From the NCBI RefSeq assembly GCF_037203705.1, contig NZ_JBBCAT010000001.1, positions 1,895,418 through 1,959,417 of the forward strand: a stretch of DNA of 64,000 nucleotides. Direction: 5' to 3'. A program made the position numbers and the translations under genes. This DNA is from Prosthecomicrobium sp. N25. Its GTDB lineage: Bacteria > Pseudomonadota > Alphaproteobacteria > Rhizobiales > Ancalomicrobiaceae. Below, one piece after another: positions 425-15,790 of this stretch (its first letter is position 1; the number at the start of each line of letters is the position of its first letter). Under the pieces are notes generated by a model, which was given only the letters and a program-made list of their open reading frames with translations, was not told where the DNA came from and did no database searches.

Positions 425-1507
425 TCAGGTGAGGCGGCCGCGCGCCTCCGCGGCGACCGACCCGACGATCTCCCCGCCACGCACCAGCACCATCTCGCCG
501 ACCACGTTCACCGTGACGCAGACGTGGTTGGGGATCACCTGCACGATCTCGCCGACGACGGGCCGCTCGTTGGAGCGGGCGAGGTCCAGCATCCCGTGCT
601 CCTCCGAGAAGCGCGCCAGCCGGGCGGCCGGATACTCGATCAGCTGGCCGTACCCGTCGAGGCCCCAGCCCGTGTCGCTCGTGAAGACCTTGGAGCCGGC
701 ATCCAGGATGCCGCGCTCCGGCGCAGCGCGGCTGACGACCGTGGTCAGCACGGTCAGCGCGCAGTCCTCGAGCCCCGCCCAGCCGACCGCCATCATCATC
801 CGGTCGTTGAAGATGGACGTCCCCGCCCGGTGCTCGGTCACGCCCCGGAGGGTGCCGAGGGTCAGCAGGTTGGGCGTGCCCCCGGTCGAGACGATGCGCG
901 GCGCTAGGCCGTGGGCGGCCAGGCCCTCGACCGTCTCATCCAGGAACCGCTGCGTCTCGGCGAGCCGGTCCTCGGGCGGGTAGAGCATCAGCCCAGCGAA
1001 TTCGAGCGCGGGCCGGGCCGCGATGTCGCGAGCGAGCGCCACGGCCTCGCCCGGCGAAACCACCCCGGCGCGCTCCCGCCCCGTGTCGCATTCGACCACC
1101 ACCGGCAGCGGCCGGCCTGCGATCTCGCCGGCGCGCACGAGCCCCGCCACCGTGACCGGATTGTCGGCCGCGACCGTCACGTCGGTCCGCGCGAGCAGCG
1201 CGCCCAGCCGCTCCGTCTTCTCCTCGCCGAGGATGTTGTAGCTGATCAGGATGTCCGACAGGCCGCCGTCCGCCATCACCTCGGCCTCGCCGAGCTTCTG
1301 GCACGTGATGCCACGCGCCCCGGAGCGGACCTGGAGACGGGCCAGTTCTACGCATTTGTGGGTCTTCACGTGCGGCCGGTTGGCGACCCTTTTGGCGTCG
1401 CAGAGCGCCTGCACCCGCCCGATGTTGCGCTCGACCACGTCCATGTCGACGACGAGCGCGGGCGTCCCGAAGGTCCTGGCGATCTCCTGCTTCAGCGACC
1501 CGTTCAT
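425..1507 (-). CDS. D-threonine aldolase / D-serine dehydratase-like PLP enzyme
   Basis: This 360-residue protein belongs to the fold-type III PLP family that groups D-threonine aldolase with eukaryotic-type D-serine dehydratase. The N-terminal alanine-racemase-like barrel carries the motif RPHVKTHK, whose first lysine (K48) is the expected Schiff-base residue. The C-terminal domain has PNHVCVTVN, which places His328 and Cys330 as a metal pair. A His-x-Cys pair is what I know from zinc-dependent D-serine dehydratases, whereas D-threonine aldolases have His-x-Asp, so dehydratase-like chemistry is slightly favoured. The product would act on a D-hydroxy amino acid in the cytoplasm. It is followed on the same strand by the flavin oxidoreductase. 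The start is the ATG at 1507; no better internal start is evident. Confidence 0.8.
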
Positions 1508-1604
1508 GTGCCCCCCGCGCGTTGCCGTCCGGGCTCGGGTCTATCGCATTCGCCGGCGGAACGGGAGACCTCGCATCGCGGGGCAGGGGCCATCCGCGCC
1601 GTCC

Positions 1605-1715
1605 CCACGCCTGCTTCAGGGTATCGGAGGGCTTTTCGGCGAAAAGCGCCCGGTAGGCCGTCGCGAAACGGCCGAGATGGAAGAAGCCCCAGGCAAAAGA
1701 CGCGGGCGATTGCGA
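1605..1715 (-). pseudogene. Remnant of an AraC-family regulator C-terminus
   Basis: Reading the minus strand from about 1700 gives a recognisable AraC/XylS C-terminal HTH tail: WGFFHLGRFATAYRALF followed by AEKPSDTLKQAW. This is the standard second-helix region (WGFxHLGRFA-YR-LFGE-PSETL) of that family. Upstream of it the same frame gives only a short unrelated stretch, and the rest of the expected protein of about 300 residues is absent. The 280 bp between the aldolase-like gene and the amine dehydrogenase operon therefore holds the stump of a deleted regulator, possibly one that once controlled the amine dehydrogenase genes. The promoter of the downstream operon must lie in the last 70 or so bases before 1788. 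Confidence 0.75.
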
Positions 1716-1787
1716 AAAGAGGATAGACCGACTTCGGGCCCCGCCGTACCCTCTTATCCGTGGTTGACGGGCTCAGGCGAGGGGACC

Positions 1788-9289: not shown

Positions 9290-10120
9290 ATGAAGACGAT
9301 CCTTGTCCCCGTCGAACCGAATCCCGCCGTCTATCCGCTGCTCGACGTGGCCCTCATTCTCGCCGAGACCCTGGGCGCCTATGTCGAGGGCCGGCTGTCC
9401 ACCTTCGACATGCCCGCCGTCGTCACCGAGATCGCCGGCACCTGGCCGATCCCCGAAGAGGTGCTGACGACCGGCCAGGTCGAGGGCGCCCGCAACCTCT
9501 TCACCACCTACATGAGTTCGCGCGGCCTCGCCGAGGCGACCGATACGTCGGAGGGCGCCGGCTGGCGCTGGGGCGGCGACAAGCCGCTGCGCGACGGAGA
9601 GGTCGGCGCCCTCGGGCGCATCTTCGACGCGATCGTGGTCGGCCGGCCCGACCCGGCCGGCGGCTACCCGCGCAACCTCACTTTCGAATCGGCCCTGTTC
9701 GAGAGCGGCCGCCCGCTCTTCGTGGCGCCGCCCATCCCGCCCACGACGATCGGCCGCACCATCACGATCGCCTGGAACGGCTCGACCGAGACCGCCCGCG
9801 CCGTCGCCTTCGCGATGCCGCTCCTCGCCAAGGCCGATCGCGTCATGGTGCTGACCGTGGAGGGCGCAACGGTGGACGGGCCGTCCGGCCGGCAGCTCGC
9901 TCGCATGCTCCGGCGCAACGGCATCCCCGCCGAGCCGGTAAGCCGCGAGGGCACGGCCCGCAGCAATGGCGAGATCATCCTCGACTACGCCATGAGCACG
10001 AACACCGACCTGCTCATCAAGGGTGCCTACACGCAGAGCCGCCTGCGCCAGATGATCTTCGGCGGCGCCACGCGCCACATCCTGGAAAACGCCCGCCTCG
10101 TGGTCTTCATGGCCCACTGA
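9290..10120 (+). CDS. Tandem-domain universal stress protein (UspA family)
   Basis: This 276-residue protein begins MKTILVPVEP, the usual first strand of a Usp domain. The second half begins TITIAWNGSTETARAVAFAMP. The C-terminal half keeps the nucleotide-binding signature GAYTQSRLRQMIFGGATRHIL, which fits G-2x-G-9x-G(S/T) loosely. The N-terminal half is more diverged. Such proteins are cytoplasmic ATP-binding stress factors. GCGGAGG precedes the ATG. The gene stands alone between the secreted protein and the candidate small RNA. Confidence 0.85.
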   Translation: MKTILVPVEPNPAVYPLLDVALILAETLGAYVEGRLSTFDMPAVVTEIAGTWPIPEEVLTTGQVEGARNLFTTYMSSRGLAEATDTSEGAGWRWGGDKPLRDGEVGALGRIFDAIVVGRPDPAGGYPRNLTFESALFESGRPLFVAPPIPPTTIGRTITIAWNGSTETARAVAFAMPLLAKADRVMVLTVEGATVDGPSGRQLARMLRRNGIPAEPVSREGTARSNGEIILDYAMSTNTDLLIKGAYTQSRLRQMIFGGATRHILENARLVVFMAH

Positions 10121-10221
10121 GAGCGCGGGCTCTCGGCCCACTGCGACCCTGCCGCAACACGCAATTCCTCTTGCCGCAGCTGACCCGCGCGCCGTGCGCG
10201 GCAGCCTTGCAGGATATTGCG

Positions 10222-10250
10222 TTGCGATCTCGCACCGCAGCATCCTAAAT
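10222..10250 (+). promoter_or_regulatory. Probable promoter of the small RNA
   Basis: TTGCGA at 10222-10227 and CTAAAT at 10245-10250 are separated by 17 bases, the expected spacing for a sigma-70-type promoter. Transcription would start at about 10256-10258, exactly at the first stem of the predicted small RNA. The match is partial, so the call rests mainly on position. Confidence 0.45.
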
Positions 10251-10255
10251 AGCCC

Positions 10256-10338
10256 TTGTGCGGTTCGCCGCACATGCCCTCCTTGGGCGTTTCCTCCCTA
10301 TAGACTTGGACCGTCGGTTTGCCGGCGGTCTTTTTTTT
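10256..10338 (+). ncRNA. Candidate trans-acting small RNA with anti-SD motifs
   Basis: Three stems follow one another in 81 bases. Stem 1 is a perfect 6-bp stem, GTGCGG/CCGCAC at 10258-10273, closed by a TTCG tetraloop. Stem 2 is GCCC/GGGC at 10276-10288 with the pyrimidine loop TCCTT. Stem 3 is a Rho-independent terminator. Between stems 2 and 3 lies an unpaired GTTTCCTCCCTATAGACTTG (10289-10308) whose TTTCCTCCC is complementary to ribosome-binding sites. A promoter-like element precedes it. This layout resembles the alphaproteobacterial anti-SD small RNAs, especially the AbcR (alpha-r15) and alpha-r14 families, but I cannot assign it to one by eye. It lies between convergent genes and contains no plausible coding frame. 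Confidence 0.7.
10309..10338 (+). terminator. Rho-independent terminator
   Basis: GACCGTCGG (10309-10317), a TTTG loop and CCGGCGGTC (10322-10330) form a 9-bp stem with one G-T wobble, followed by eight T residues. It is one of the few textbook intrinsic terminators in the window and would end the small RNA. It may also stop read-through from the stress protein gene. Confidence 0.85.
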
Positions 10339-10350
10339 GGCCGGACGGGT

Positions 10351-10932
10351 TCAGACGTCGAAGAACACCGTCTCGTCGTCGCCCTGCATGGCGATGTCGA
10401 AGTGGTAGAGCCCGCCCCCGAGCGCCCGGGCGACGAGGGTGCCGCGCCGCTCCTCCGGCACCAGCGCCAGCACCGGGTCCGCGGCGTTCGCCTCCTCCTC
10501 GTCCGCGAAGTAGATGCGCGTGTAGGCATGCAGGAGCAGCCCCCGCATCATCACGCAGACGTTGAGGTGCGGCGCCTCGCCGTCGTGGCCGCCGGGCTTG
10601 ATGGTGTCGAAGACGAAGCGGAGGCTCGGGTCCGCGCCGGTCCCGCAGCGGCCGACCCCATGAAAGGCACCGCGGTCGGCGAAGTCGGCCTCATCGGGGT
10701 AGCGCCCGCTGGCGTCGGCCTGCCAGATCTCGATCATGGCGTCGTCGACGGGCGCGCCCGCTCCGTCGAAGACCTGGCCGAAGACGCGGATGCGTGGCCC
10801 CGGCGTGTCGTCGCGCGCAATCCGCCCGTCGGCGAGCTGGTCCCAGTCGTAGCCGTACTGGCGCGCCGTCAGTCCGTAGGCGAAATAGGGGCCGACGGTC
10901 TGCGACGGCGTCTGCGGCATGCGGTTGGTCAT
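10351..10932 (-). CDS. pcaG: Protocatechuate 3,4-dioxygenase alpha subunit
   Basis: This 193-residue protein is the alpha subunit of the non-haem iron intradiol dioxygenase that opens the ring of protocatechuate to 3-carboxy-cis,cis-muconate. The N-terminus (TPSQTVGPYFAYGL) and the segment IEIWQADASGRYPD are typical of the PcaG fold, and the length matches the family. The alpha subunit does not hold the iron, which is bound by PcaH. The gene starts four bases after the pcaH stop codon. It is the last gene of a pcaC-pcaH-pcaG operon on the minus strand. Confidence 0.92.
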   Translation of the reverse strand: MTNRMPQTPSQTVGPYFAYGLTARQYGYDWDQLADGRIARDDTPGPRIRVFGQVFDGAGAPVDDAMIEIWQADASGRYPDEADFADRGAFHGVGRCGTGADPSLRFVFDTIKPGGHDGEAPHLNVCVMMRGLLLHAYTRIYFADEEEANAADPVLALVPEERRGTLVARALGGGLYHFDIAMQGDDETVFFDV

Positions 10933-10936
10933 CGGG

Positions 10937-11632
10937 TCAGTCCTCCATCGGCGTGGCGTCGCGCCCGCGCAGCACGATGTCCCAACGATAGCCGAGCGCC
11001 CATTCCGGCTCGGTCGTGTCGATGTCGAAGTCGGCGATCATCAGCTCCCGCGAGCCGGGCGGCGCGCTGTTGTAGATCGGGTCGAGCGCCAGCAGCGGAT
11101 CGCCGGGGAAGTACATCTGAGTGACCAGCCGGCTCGCGAAGCCCGGGCCGAAGAGCGAGAAGTGGATGTGATTCGGCCGCCAGGCATTGTGGTGGTTCCG
11201 CCAGGGATAGGCCCCGGGCTTGACCGACAGGAACCGGTAGCGGCCCTCATCGTCGGTCACGCAGCGTCCCGATCCCCGGAAGTTCGGATCGATCGGCGCG
11301 TCGTGCTGGTCGCGCTTGTGGATGTAGCGGCCGGCCGCGTTCGCCTGCCAGACCTCCACCACCGTGTTGCGCACCGGACGGCCGAAATCGTCGAGCACCC
11401 GTCCGGTGACGATGATCCGCTCGCCCAGCGGCTCGCCGTTGACCCGGCCGTTCCGGGTCAGGTCCGTATCGAGCGGCCCGACCCAGTCCTGCCCGAACCG
11501 TGGCCCGGCCAGTTCGCCCCGGCCGAGCGGAATGCGGACGAGCGGCTTCGTCGGCCCGCGCAGCCCCGTCGACTTGTAGCCCTCGTCGATCCATTTCGGC
11601 TGGCCCGCATAGTCCCTGGGCGTGAACGTCAT
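10937..11632 (-). CDS. pcaH: Protocatechuate 3,4-dioxygenase beta subunit
   Basis: This 231-residue protein is the iron-binding beta subunit. The ligand set expected for intradiol dioxygenases is visible as tyrosines in GRYIHKRD and AYPWRNH and the histidine pair in PNHIHFSLFG. VVEVWQANAAGRY matches the family. The start at 11632 (MTFTPRDYAG) overlaps the pcaC stop by four bases (ATGA) and has GGAGGG in the upstream gene. An in-frame start 24 bp further upstream is less likely. Together with PcaG it performs the entry step of the protocatechuate branch of the beta-ketoadipate pathway. Confidence 0.93.
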   Translation of the reverse strand: MTFTPRDYAGQPKWIDEGYKSTGLRGPTKPLVRIPLGRGELAGPRFGQDWVGPLDTDLTRNGRVNGEPLGERIIVTGRVLDDFGRPVRNTVVEVWQANAAGRYIHKRDQHDAPIDPNFRGSGRCVTDDEGRYRFLSVKPGAYPWRNHHNAWRPNHIHFSLFGPGFASRLVTQMYFPGDPLLALDPIYNSAPPGSRELMIADFDIDTTEPEWALGYRWDIVLRGRDATPMED

Positions 11633-12045
11633 GGCGTGTCCCCTCCCTCCGGCCAAGTCCGGCCGAGATCCGCATAGACCTTCTTGGCGATCTTGATGGC
11701 CGTGTTCGCCGCCGGCACGCCCGCGTAGATCGCCACGTGCAAGAGCGCCTCGCGCACGTCCTCCGGCGTCGCGCCCGTGTTGGCCGTGGCGCGGACATGC
11801 ATGGCGAGCTCGTCATGGTGGCCGAGCGCGGCCAGGAGCGCGATGGTGACGATCGACCGCTCACGCAGGGTGAACTCCGGCCGGCTCCAGACCGTCCCCC
11901 AGGCCGCGCGCGTGATCAGGGTCTGGAACGGCTCGTCGAAGGCAGTCGTCGATGCCTGCGCCCGGTCCACGTGCGCGTCGCCCAGCACGCGGCGGCGGAC
12001 CGCTTCTCCCGTCTTCTCGAGCGCACCCGGCGGGTCGTCCCCCAT
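11629..12045 (-). CDS. pcaC: 4-carboxymuconolactone decarboxylase
   Basis: This 138-residue protein is of the AhpD-like carboxymuconolactone decarboxylase family. Visible family segments are AFDEPFQTLITRAAWGTVWSR, LRERSIVTIALLAALGHHDEL and ATANTGATPEDVREALLHVAIYAG. It converts 4-carboxymuconolactone to beta-ketoadipate enol-lactone. The ATG at 12045 was chosen because GGGAGGA lies six bases upstream and the length then matches the usual 130-140 residues. An upstream in-frame extension to 12132 lacks such a site. It heads the pcaCHG operon. The pcaB, pcaD and pcaQ genes are not in this window. Confidence 0.9.
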   Translation of the reverse strand: MGDDPPGALEKTGEAVRRRVLGDAHVDRAQASTTAFDEPFQTLITRAAWGTVWSRPEFTLRERSIVTIALLAALGHHDELAMHVRATANTGATPEDVREALLHVAIYAGVPAANTAIKIAKKVYADLGRTWPEGGDTP

Positions 12046-12127
12046 GCCGATCCTCCCATTGTTTTCGGGCACTGTGCGGCCCGGGACGGTGATCTGCAAT
12101 GCCTCTCCCGGCGGCACTGCCACGCTA

Positions 12128-12139
12128 CGCAATATTGCG
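12128..12139. promoter_or_regulatory. Palindrome in the pcaC/yeiH divergent region
   Basis: CGCAATATTGCG is a perfect 12-bp palindrome between the divergent pcaC and YeiH-like genes (199 bp apart). It is a candidate operator for either operon. It does not match the PcaQ-type site I know, so the regulator is open. Confidence 0.35.
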
Positions 12140-14458: not shown

Positions 14459-14497
14459 AGACCCGGAATCGAAGCATCGAAAACAAGGAGGAAAGCC

Positions 14498-15790
14498 ATG
14501 GGAGTCCACACGAATTTCCGTATCGCCGCGCTCGGTGCGGCCGCCTTCGCCGGCCTCCTGGCGGCAACCGCCGCGCCGGTCCGCGCCCAGGAGGTGGTCT
14601 TCCTGTCCACCCAGCTCCGCCCGATCGAGGAGGCCCAGAAGGTCCGCGGCGCGATCCTCAAGGGCGGCCCGAAGACCGCCTACGTCACCGAGGAGCCCGC
14701 GCCCTTCGTGGTCCGCGCCCGCGCCGAGCAGCAGGCCGGCAAGGTGTCGGCGAGCCTCTACGGCGCCGGCCACGGCGAGATGGCCCCGCTCGCCGGCACG
14801 CTCGAGCCGCTCGACGACGTGGTCGCCAAGCTCAAGGACCGTGGCTTCCCGCAGGGCCTGGTCGACGCCGGCAAGTTCGGCACCGGCAACGTCCTGATGA
14901 TCCCCTGGATGCAGGCGAGCTACGTGCTCGTCGTCAACAAGCAGGCGCTGCCCTTCCTGCCCGCCGGCGCCAACGTCGAGGCGCTGACCTTCGACCAGCT
15001 CGCCCAGTGGGGCAAGGCGATCCAGGAGAAGACCGGCAAGCGCATGCTGGGCTTCCCGGCCGGCCCCAAGGGCCTGATGAATCGCTTCCTGCAGGGCAGC
15101 CTCGTGCCCGCCTACGCCGCCTCGACCGTCACCGAGTTCCGCTCCGCCGAGGCCGAGAAGGGCTGGACCGACCTGAAGGCGCTCTGGGCCTCCGTGAACC
15201 CGAACTCGACCTCCTACGACTTCATGCAGGAGCCGCTGCTCGCCGGCGACGTGTGGATCGCCTGGGACCACGTCGCCCGCGTCAAGGAGGCGCTGACGGC
15301 CGCCCCCAACGACTACGTGGTCGTGCCGAGCCCGGCCGGACCGAAGGGCCGCGGCGCCATGGTGGTGCTCGCCGGCCTCTCGATCCCCAAGGGCGCTCCG
15401 GACCGCGCCGGCGCGGTCGCCCTGATCGAGCACCTGACCAAGCCCGAGACCCAGGCGATCACGGCCGCCGAGGTCGGCTTCTTCCCCGTGGTCTCCGCCA
15501 AGCTCCCCGGCGACCTGCCTCCGGGCGTCAAGCTGATCGCCGACGGCCTCGCCAAGACGCAGGCCTCCAAGGACCTCGTCAACGTGCTGCTCCCGGTCGG
15601 CCTCGGCGACAAGGGCGGCGAGTTCAACAAGGTCTACATCGACACCTTCCAGCGCGTCGTCCTCAAGGGCGAGCCGGTCCGCGCCGTGCTCGACAGCCAG
15701 GCGGAGGCCCTCAAGGCCGTCATCGCCGCCTCCAAGGCGCCCTGCTGGGCCCCCGACGCCGCCTCGGACGGTCCCTGCCCGGTGAAGTGA
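14498..15790 (+). CDS. ABC transporter extracellular solute-binding protein
   Basis: This 430-residue protein is a family 1 type carbohydrate/osmolyte-binding protein with a cleavable leader (residues 1-31, ending PVRAQE). AAGGAGG lies six bases before the ATG, the strongest ribosome-binding site in the operon. The domain shows the usual alternation of LTFDQLAQWGKAIQEKTGK and VWIAWDHVARVKEAL segments. It delivers the substrate to the permeases encoded at 16325 and 17173. It is separated from them by 534 bp holding two copies of a dispersed repeat, an arrangement that can raise binding-protein output over permease output. The substrate is inferred from the GH63-like hydrolase in the same operon. 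Confidence 0.88.
   Translation: MGVHTNFRIAALGAAAFAGLLAATAAPVRAQEVVFLSTQLRPIEEAQKVRGAILKGGPKTAYVTEEPAPFVVRARAEQQAGKVSASLYGAGHGEMAPLAGTLEPLDDVVAKLKDRGFPQGLVDAGKFGTGNVLMIPWMQASYVLVVNKQALPFLPAGANVEALTFDQLAQWGKAIQEKTGKRMLGFPAGPKGLMNRFLQGSLVPAYAASTVTEFRSAEAEKGWTDLKALWASVNPNSTSYDFMQEPLLAGDVWIAWDHVARVKEALTAAPNDYVVVPSPAGPKGRGAMVVLAGLSIPKGAPDRAGAVALIEHLTKPETQAITAAEVGFFPVVSAKLPGDLPPGVKLIADGLAKTQASKDLVNVLLPVGLGDKGGEFNKVYIDTFQRVVLKGEPVRAVLDSQAEALKAVIAASKAPCWAPDAASDGPCPVK

Follow-up and report, generated by a model that had tools for sequence, protein, structure and literature searches.

The 64,000-nt stretch of DNA analysed here (the window) carries a predicted 81-nt small RNA that appears to be an extra copy of the known alpha-r8 (MmgR, suhB) family and not an AbcR RNA. 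The RNA is probably a PHB-status-controlled anti-Shine-Dalgarno RNA, in which PhaR would act at two operator cores and the seed would block ribosome sites. The family assignment, three stem-loops, the 10-mer, the terminator, the operator cores, a PhaR gene and cores at phasin loci can all be read from the genome sequence and argue for this. 

Fold and family of the small RNA

The initial annotation described an unannotated small RNA with anti-Shine-Dalgarno segments and its own terminator, consisting of a 6-bp stem capped by TTCG, another stem closing a pyrimidine loop, an unpaired segment and a U-tailed terminator. Both stems and the terminator are present (Table 1). The terminator stem spans 10308–10331 with eight T at 10331–10338, and it is the stronger of two terminator-like sites found in 9500–11000, where 0.5 are expected. 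The segment described as unpaired, the 10-mer, is exposed in the predicted fold except for its first base, U10290, which pairs with A10274 in the minimum-energy structure. The 81-nt sequence folds at −37.5 kcal/mol versus −21.8 kcal/mol for 200 dinucleotide shuffles (z = −5.44), none of which folds as well. The described elements are thus real; "unannotated" is true of the raw window, but the family exists in Rfam.

Table 1. Position, strand and basis of the features at the small RNA locus (window coordinates)
Feature	Position	Strand	Basis
Universal stress protein (Usp) gene, upstream neighbour	9290..10120	+	PF00582
PhaR-type operator core 1, TGCGTTGCG, over −35 element	10218..10226	+	YGCRNYGCR letter match
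Putative promoter TTGCGA-N17-CTAAAT	10222..10250	+	direct reading
PhaR-type operator core 2, CGCACCGCA, in promoter spacer	10231..10239	+	YGCRNYGCR letter match
alpha-r8 (MmgR/suhB) sRNA, predicted 81 nt	10258..10338	+	RF00519 match and fold; 5′ end inferred
Stem-loop 1, GTGCGG-TTCG-CCGCAC, UUCG loop	10258..10273	+	fold
Stem-loop 2, TGCCC-TCCTT-GGGCG, UCCUU loop	10275..10289	+	fold, Rfam model, alignment of relatives
alpha-r8 10-mer UUUCCUCCCU, putative anti-Shine-Dalgarno seed (sequence TTTCCTCCCT)	10290..10299	+	direct reading
ATAGACTT, conserved GACTT stretch	10300..10307	+	alignment, pairing analysis
Rho-independent terminator with U tail	10308..10338	+	terminator scan, fold
Convergent pcaG	10351–10932	−	Pfam matches of region: PF00775, PF12391, PF02627
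Convergent pcaH, start about 11632	within 10351..12132	−	Pfam matches of region: PF00775, PF12391, PF02627
Convergent carboxymuconolactone decarboxylase gene	11629–12132	−	Pfam matches of region: PF00775, PF12391, PF02627

RF00519 (suhB, MmgR, alpha-r8) matches positions 10269–10345 over the full model (1–77 of 77) with 71.1 bits against a cut-off of 41, and is the sole Rfam match above cut-off within the whole 64-kb window. A permissive scan of 10100–10450 with all 4227 families, which hides one lower-scoring match of the same clan, gave seven further families, all sub-threshold. Alpha-r8 is defined by a single-stranded UUUCCUCCCU after a weak hairpin (PMC12559287), and this hallmark 10-mer is present exactly in the window RNA. 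The covariance model, the exposed 10-mer and the Rho-independent terminator all agree with membership in alpha-r8; MmgR of Sinorhizobium meliloti likewise shows the family model match, the exact 10-mer and three stem-loops.

Membership in AbcR (alpha-r15) or alpha-r14, as first proposed, does not hold. The ar15/AbcR model (RF02345) gives 18.8 bits at the window RNA (cut-off 40, E = 0.5) and matches nowhere else in the genome at E ≤ 1; AbcR was rejected on this score against the 71.1 bits of RF00519. Alpha-r14 was rejected as well, being absent from the matches of 10100–10450 up to E = 5 in the 4227-family scan. What stands is a small RNA gene of the trans-acting type, having anti-Shine-Dalgarno segments, a terminator of its own and a likely promoter, together with the kinship to the AbcR group, alpha-r15 members being partially homologous to SuhB, RF00519 (PMC7143759). 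AbcR1/2 have anti-Shine-Dalgarno logic in common with the window RNA as well as this partial homology, and perhaps importer targets, but are 114–120 nt in length (PMC7143759).

The expected conservation in relatives is found for stem 2 and the 10-mer, and covariation for the terminator. The observation is more than chance: the stem 2/10-mer core is nearly invariant in 33 aligned relatives. Compensatory changes occur at 4 of 8 terminator pairs. The alignment holds 33 of the 37 extracted copies (L020, L036 and both L031 copies, with wrongly cut 3′ ends, were omitted). The 10-mer is exact in 85 of 86 family copies, which were picked by that same core. The sequence of stem 1 varies, and a hairpin is kept at the same place in relatives of unrelated sequence. 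The 31 nt before stem 2 show a mean fold z of −2.63 over 86 copies, 60 of them below −2, relative to shuffles that keep base composition only and not dinucleotides. A simple stem test is passed by 81 of the 86 copies, but also by 61% of 410 31-mers drawn at random from these loci. RNAalifold gave no stem-1 pairs on the MAFFT alignment, where stem 1 had been misaligned.

Copies and their genomic placement

The genome contains four RF00519 copies above cut-off, the window copy being the best-scoring, plus eight lower-scoring hits with E no greater than 1. Matches above cut-off are found in 50 of 61 relatives and 86 of 190 class genomes. The usual place of alpha-r8 is beside an N-formylglutamate amidohydrolase gene, with one copy in most species (paralogues exempt). 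MmgR is single-copy in S. meliloti (PMC12559287), whereas the window RNA is one of four. The SisA-D RNAs of Caulobacter crescentus are sibling alpha-r8 copies that share this 10-mer and are dispersed among different loci, as in the window genome.

Copy L002 is at the usual place, between N-formylglutamate amidohydrolase and inositol-monophosphatase genes, and its flanks match those of many genomes of the order. The flanks of copies L003 and L004 match those of copies in both same-genus genomes. The window copy is not at the usual site; it is situated between the Usp gene and pcaCHG, its flanks match no locus of the compared relatives, and the RNA alone aligns. L127 and L131, from the two same-genus genomes, show a terminator similar to that of the window copy, with unlike flanks. 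A Usp search of the genome contigs found no relative, and in family genomes Usp is matched at 26–41% identity. PcaG is matched at 48–49% identity in the two same-genus genomes, and the closest named PcaG is that of Geminicoccus harenae (77%). In a synteny survey retaining 80 of 242 PcaG relatives, the small RNA was found at 0 of 80 pcaG loci by pattern and at 0 of 16 of those by Rfam, and the fetched family loci show no clear copy beside pcaG. The window copy would thus be a lineage-specific placement or a moved copy.

Three further loci display related features. Paralogue L003 also adjoins an intradiol-dioxygenase-like gene (PF00775; L003 1676–2215, + strand), which may be coincidence. L007 carries at about 1476–1775 (+ strand; G000:C4:174047 and 174234) two weak alpha-r8-like elements in tandem, scoring 29 and 23.6 bits, with no PhaR cores in the 120 nt upstream. 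An sRNA-like element in L005 (1501–1578, + strand; G000:C1:335614–335691) combines a strong terminator with two anti-Shine-Dalgarno segments, UUUCCUCCC and UCUCCUCCUC. It scores just 30.5 bits to suhB and its layout is more AbcR-like than that of the window RNA; L129 resembles it.

Promoter and PhaR-type operator cores

The putative promoter consists of TTGCGA (10222–10227), 17 nt and CTAAAT (10245–10250), which resembles the alphaproteobacterial promoter consensus. It would plausibly start the RNA near 10258, at stem 1. The promoter claimed by the initial annotation is plausible to this extent, but an E. coli-type promoter scan of 9500–11000, using that type of consensus, found none.

Two matches to the PhaR operator core YGCRNYGCR (motif from PMC12542648) are found at this promoter, as in members of the PhaR regulon (Table 1). 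The S. meliloti PhaR protein (AniA) recognises a palindrome built around this core; its gel shift of the mmgR promoter is described as "efficient" and depends on the palindrome (PMC12542648). PhaR depletion in that species raises MmgR (PMC12542648, PMC12559287). The 12 bases of GCACCGCAGCAT (10232–10243), around core 2, also occur in the operator published for S. meliloti mmgR. MmgR is also NtrC-induced (PMC7143759), whereas the window promoter lacks an evident sigma-54 site, with only one unconvincing GG-N10-GC at 10212.

A core is found upstream of 73 of 87 alpha-r8 copies versus 6.6 expected, a count in which the copies are related and so not independent. Control motifs give 2–19 (other half-site spacings) and 2–8 (seven rearranged motifs). 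By group, cores precede 3 of the 4 copies in this genome, 28 of 33 from the order, 20 of 23 others from the family and 22 of 27 from the class. The count drew on 90 loci and kept the 87 copies fitting a pattern of at most two mismatches to the alpha-r8 core, then ACTT; these loci are best-scoring matches or family copies and thus non-random, and L218 of the class group belongs to the same order. Eleven loci were dropped by the pattern (L128, L129, L132, L133, L134, L151, L200, L201, L211, L219, L222), 5 with and 6 without a core, for a total of 78 of 98 copies with a core. With a single representative per family, and the window's own family set aside, a core-bearing copy occurs in 18 of 18 order genomes and at 18 of 23 class loci. 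Over its full length, the window contains 45 cores, fewer than the 109 of its shuffles. Gaps between successive cores are 19–22 bp in 25 of 43 cases, and 13 bp in the window. Own copy L004 is without a core.

PhaR is encoded in the genome and in 53 of 61 relatives, and two of the genome's four phasin loci carry cores upstream. PhaR control is the best reading of the window promoter from its sequence. The literature searched shows PhaR control for S. meliloti mmgR only. According to PMC12559287, sisA-D have no upstream motif in common, whereas the window genome shows a PhaR core at 3 of its 4 copies. At the phasin loci, L147 (G000:C1:2379405) displays three PhaR-type cores, all inside the roughly 65 nt that precede the most distant possible phasin start codon; L149 displays two.

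Predicted pairing partners, proposed mechanism and alternatives

No MmgR target has been proven to be direct; in Caulobacter, SisA uses the 10-mer to repress mRNAs, including those of TonB-dependent receptors (PMC12559287). In the window genome 25 sites, GGGAGGAAA, are perfect 9-nt complements of the seed, and 13 of these were counted as ribosome sites of genes (ATG or TTG 2–7 nt on, open reading frame of at least 60 aa). Of the 12 dropped sites, three belong to alpha-r8 copies, one to the weak copy L005 and one to the ar9 RNA; two have GTG 11 nt on, four lack a start, and one resembles RNase P RNA. Six of the 13 genes encode solute-binding proteins (L225, L228, L233, L235, L240, L248) versus 2 among 19 controls (Fisher p = 0.031). 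If the doubtful control L276, an internal Met of a binding-protein gene, is included, the control count becomes 3 of 20 and p rises to 0.060. The controls derive from 77 AAGGAGG sites, 30 of which had loci, 20 with an open reading frame of at least 60 aa; one of them, L275, a binding-protein gene in the window, itself has an 8-nt seed complement. Importer mRNAs, the targets originally claimed, are suggested only weakly. Within the window, GGAGGAAAGCC-ATG (14487–14498, + strand) of a solute-binding protein gene is complementary to 8 nt of the seed; this gene follows a LacI-type regulator gene and is about 4 kb from the small RNA. Phasin ribosome sites pair unremarkably with the RNA.

One of the 25 seed-complement sites, at G000:C4:444884, is within an ar9 sRNA gene (RF02343, 50 bits, cut-off 45; L245 1374–1559, − strand). 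The Rfam ar9 consensus carries AAgUCuUGGGAgGA in a small hairpin with loop UGGGA; this segment can form two 7-bp blocks with the alpha-r8 core, with a single mismatch, and its complement spans the 10-mer and ATAGACTT. The consensus pairs with the alpha-r8 core at −25.1 kcal/mol (0 of 2000 shuffles as good). The own-genome ar9 pairs with the alpha-r8 consensus core at −26.2 kcal/mol, a value reached by 0 of 2000 shuffles and by 0 of 3410 other 186-nt segments (from 55 own-genome loci). Pairing is weaker for the window copy, in which the 10-mer is followed by two additional bases: −20.9 kcal/mol, equalled by 4 of 2000 shuffles and 6 of 3410 own-genome segments. This evidence comes from one ar9 sequence and the Rfam consensus; ar9 has no match in plasmids and no PhaR core upstream.

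The pairing suggests that ar9 may be a sponge of alpha-r8, like CrfA in Caulobacter. Searches for alpha-r9, Smr9C and SmelC289 found no sponge role and no ar9 function in the literature covered; SmelC289/smrC9 is taken here to be alpha-r9. A table in PMC7143759 lists SmelC289/smrC9. CrfA counters SisA and has a G/A-rich second stem-loop (PMC12559287). The own-genome ar9 likewise offers a G/A-rich hairpin that can pair with the alpha-r8 core, a close parallel; ar9 is a differently named family. Parts of the PhaR and ar9 observations may already be in print.

In the proposed mechanism, a sigma-70-type promoter most likely starts the 81-nt RNA near 10258, and PhaR, the PHB-binding repressor, would bind the two operator cores over the −35 element and spacer. 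With little stored PHB, PhaR would hold the RNA low; stored PHB would titrate PhaR and release it. The RNA, probably with Hfq, would then pair UUUCCUCCC with G/A-rich ribosome sites and block translation. Transcription, PhaR binding at the window promoter, Hfq and targets are the inferred parts of this scheme.

Among the alternatives, it is unlikely that the RNA is a real alpha-r8 member but that another regulator, not PhaR, occupies its operator cores. The motif is matched by letters only and the lack of a common motif at sisA-D would fit such a regulator, but the palindrome-dependent shift of the mmgR promoter by S. meliloti PhaR, the same core at phasin loci of this genome and the PhaR genes of its relatives argue for PhaR. 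That an AbcR or alpha-r14 RNA represses ABC and TRAP importers has hardly any probability left. The C/U-rich anti-Shine-Dalgarno logic, the partial homology of alpha-r15 to SuhB and the six solute-binding protein genes agree with it, but the covariance scores given above do not.

The unmatched flanks and the 2-nt insert after the 10-mer would also be expected if the copy, at a lineage-specific location, were silent or decaying; this is improbable against the top score of this copy in the genome and its intact seed, stems, terminator and operator cores. Quite improbable to a like degree is a mainly cis action on the convergent pcaCHG transcript, possibly running through the small RNA as antisense. 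The end of pcaG at 10351, a minus strand without a T-run after the shared hairpin, and the good pairing of the pcaH ribosome site among 95 start regions ranked without calibration speak for it, but the pcaH pairing is not a perfect seed complement, other copies have other neighbours, and the small RNA is missing from the pcaG loci surveyed. The PhaR-controlled alpha-r8 copy thus remains the preferred reading.

A broader proposal is possible but tentative: across much of the Alphaproteobacteria, PhaR, reporting PHB status at alpha-r8 promoters, and ar9 sponging via the seed and AGACUUGG would let the sibling RNAs pass stored-carbon status to importer translation. The AbcR reading of the window RNA is corrected to alpha-r8, and PhaR control, predicted for most alpha-r8 genes examined, hints at what this widespread family may sense. 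If the proposal is true, ar9 pairing would explain the invariance of bases beyond the anti-Shine-Dalgarno seed, and ar9 would be the counterpart of Caulobacter CrfA, gaining a directly testable role as an alpha-r8 antagonist.
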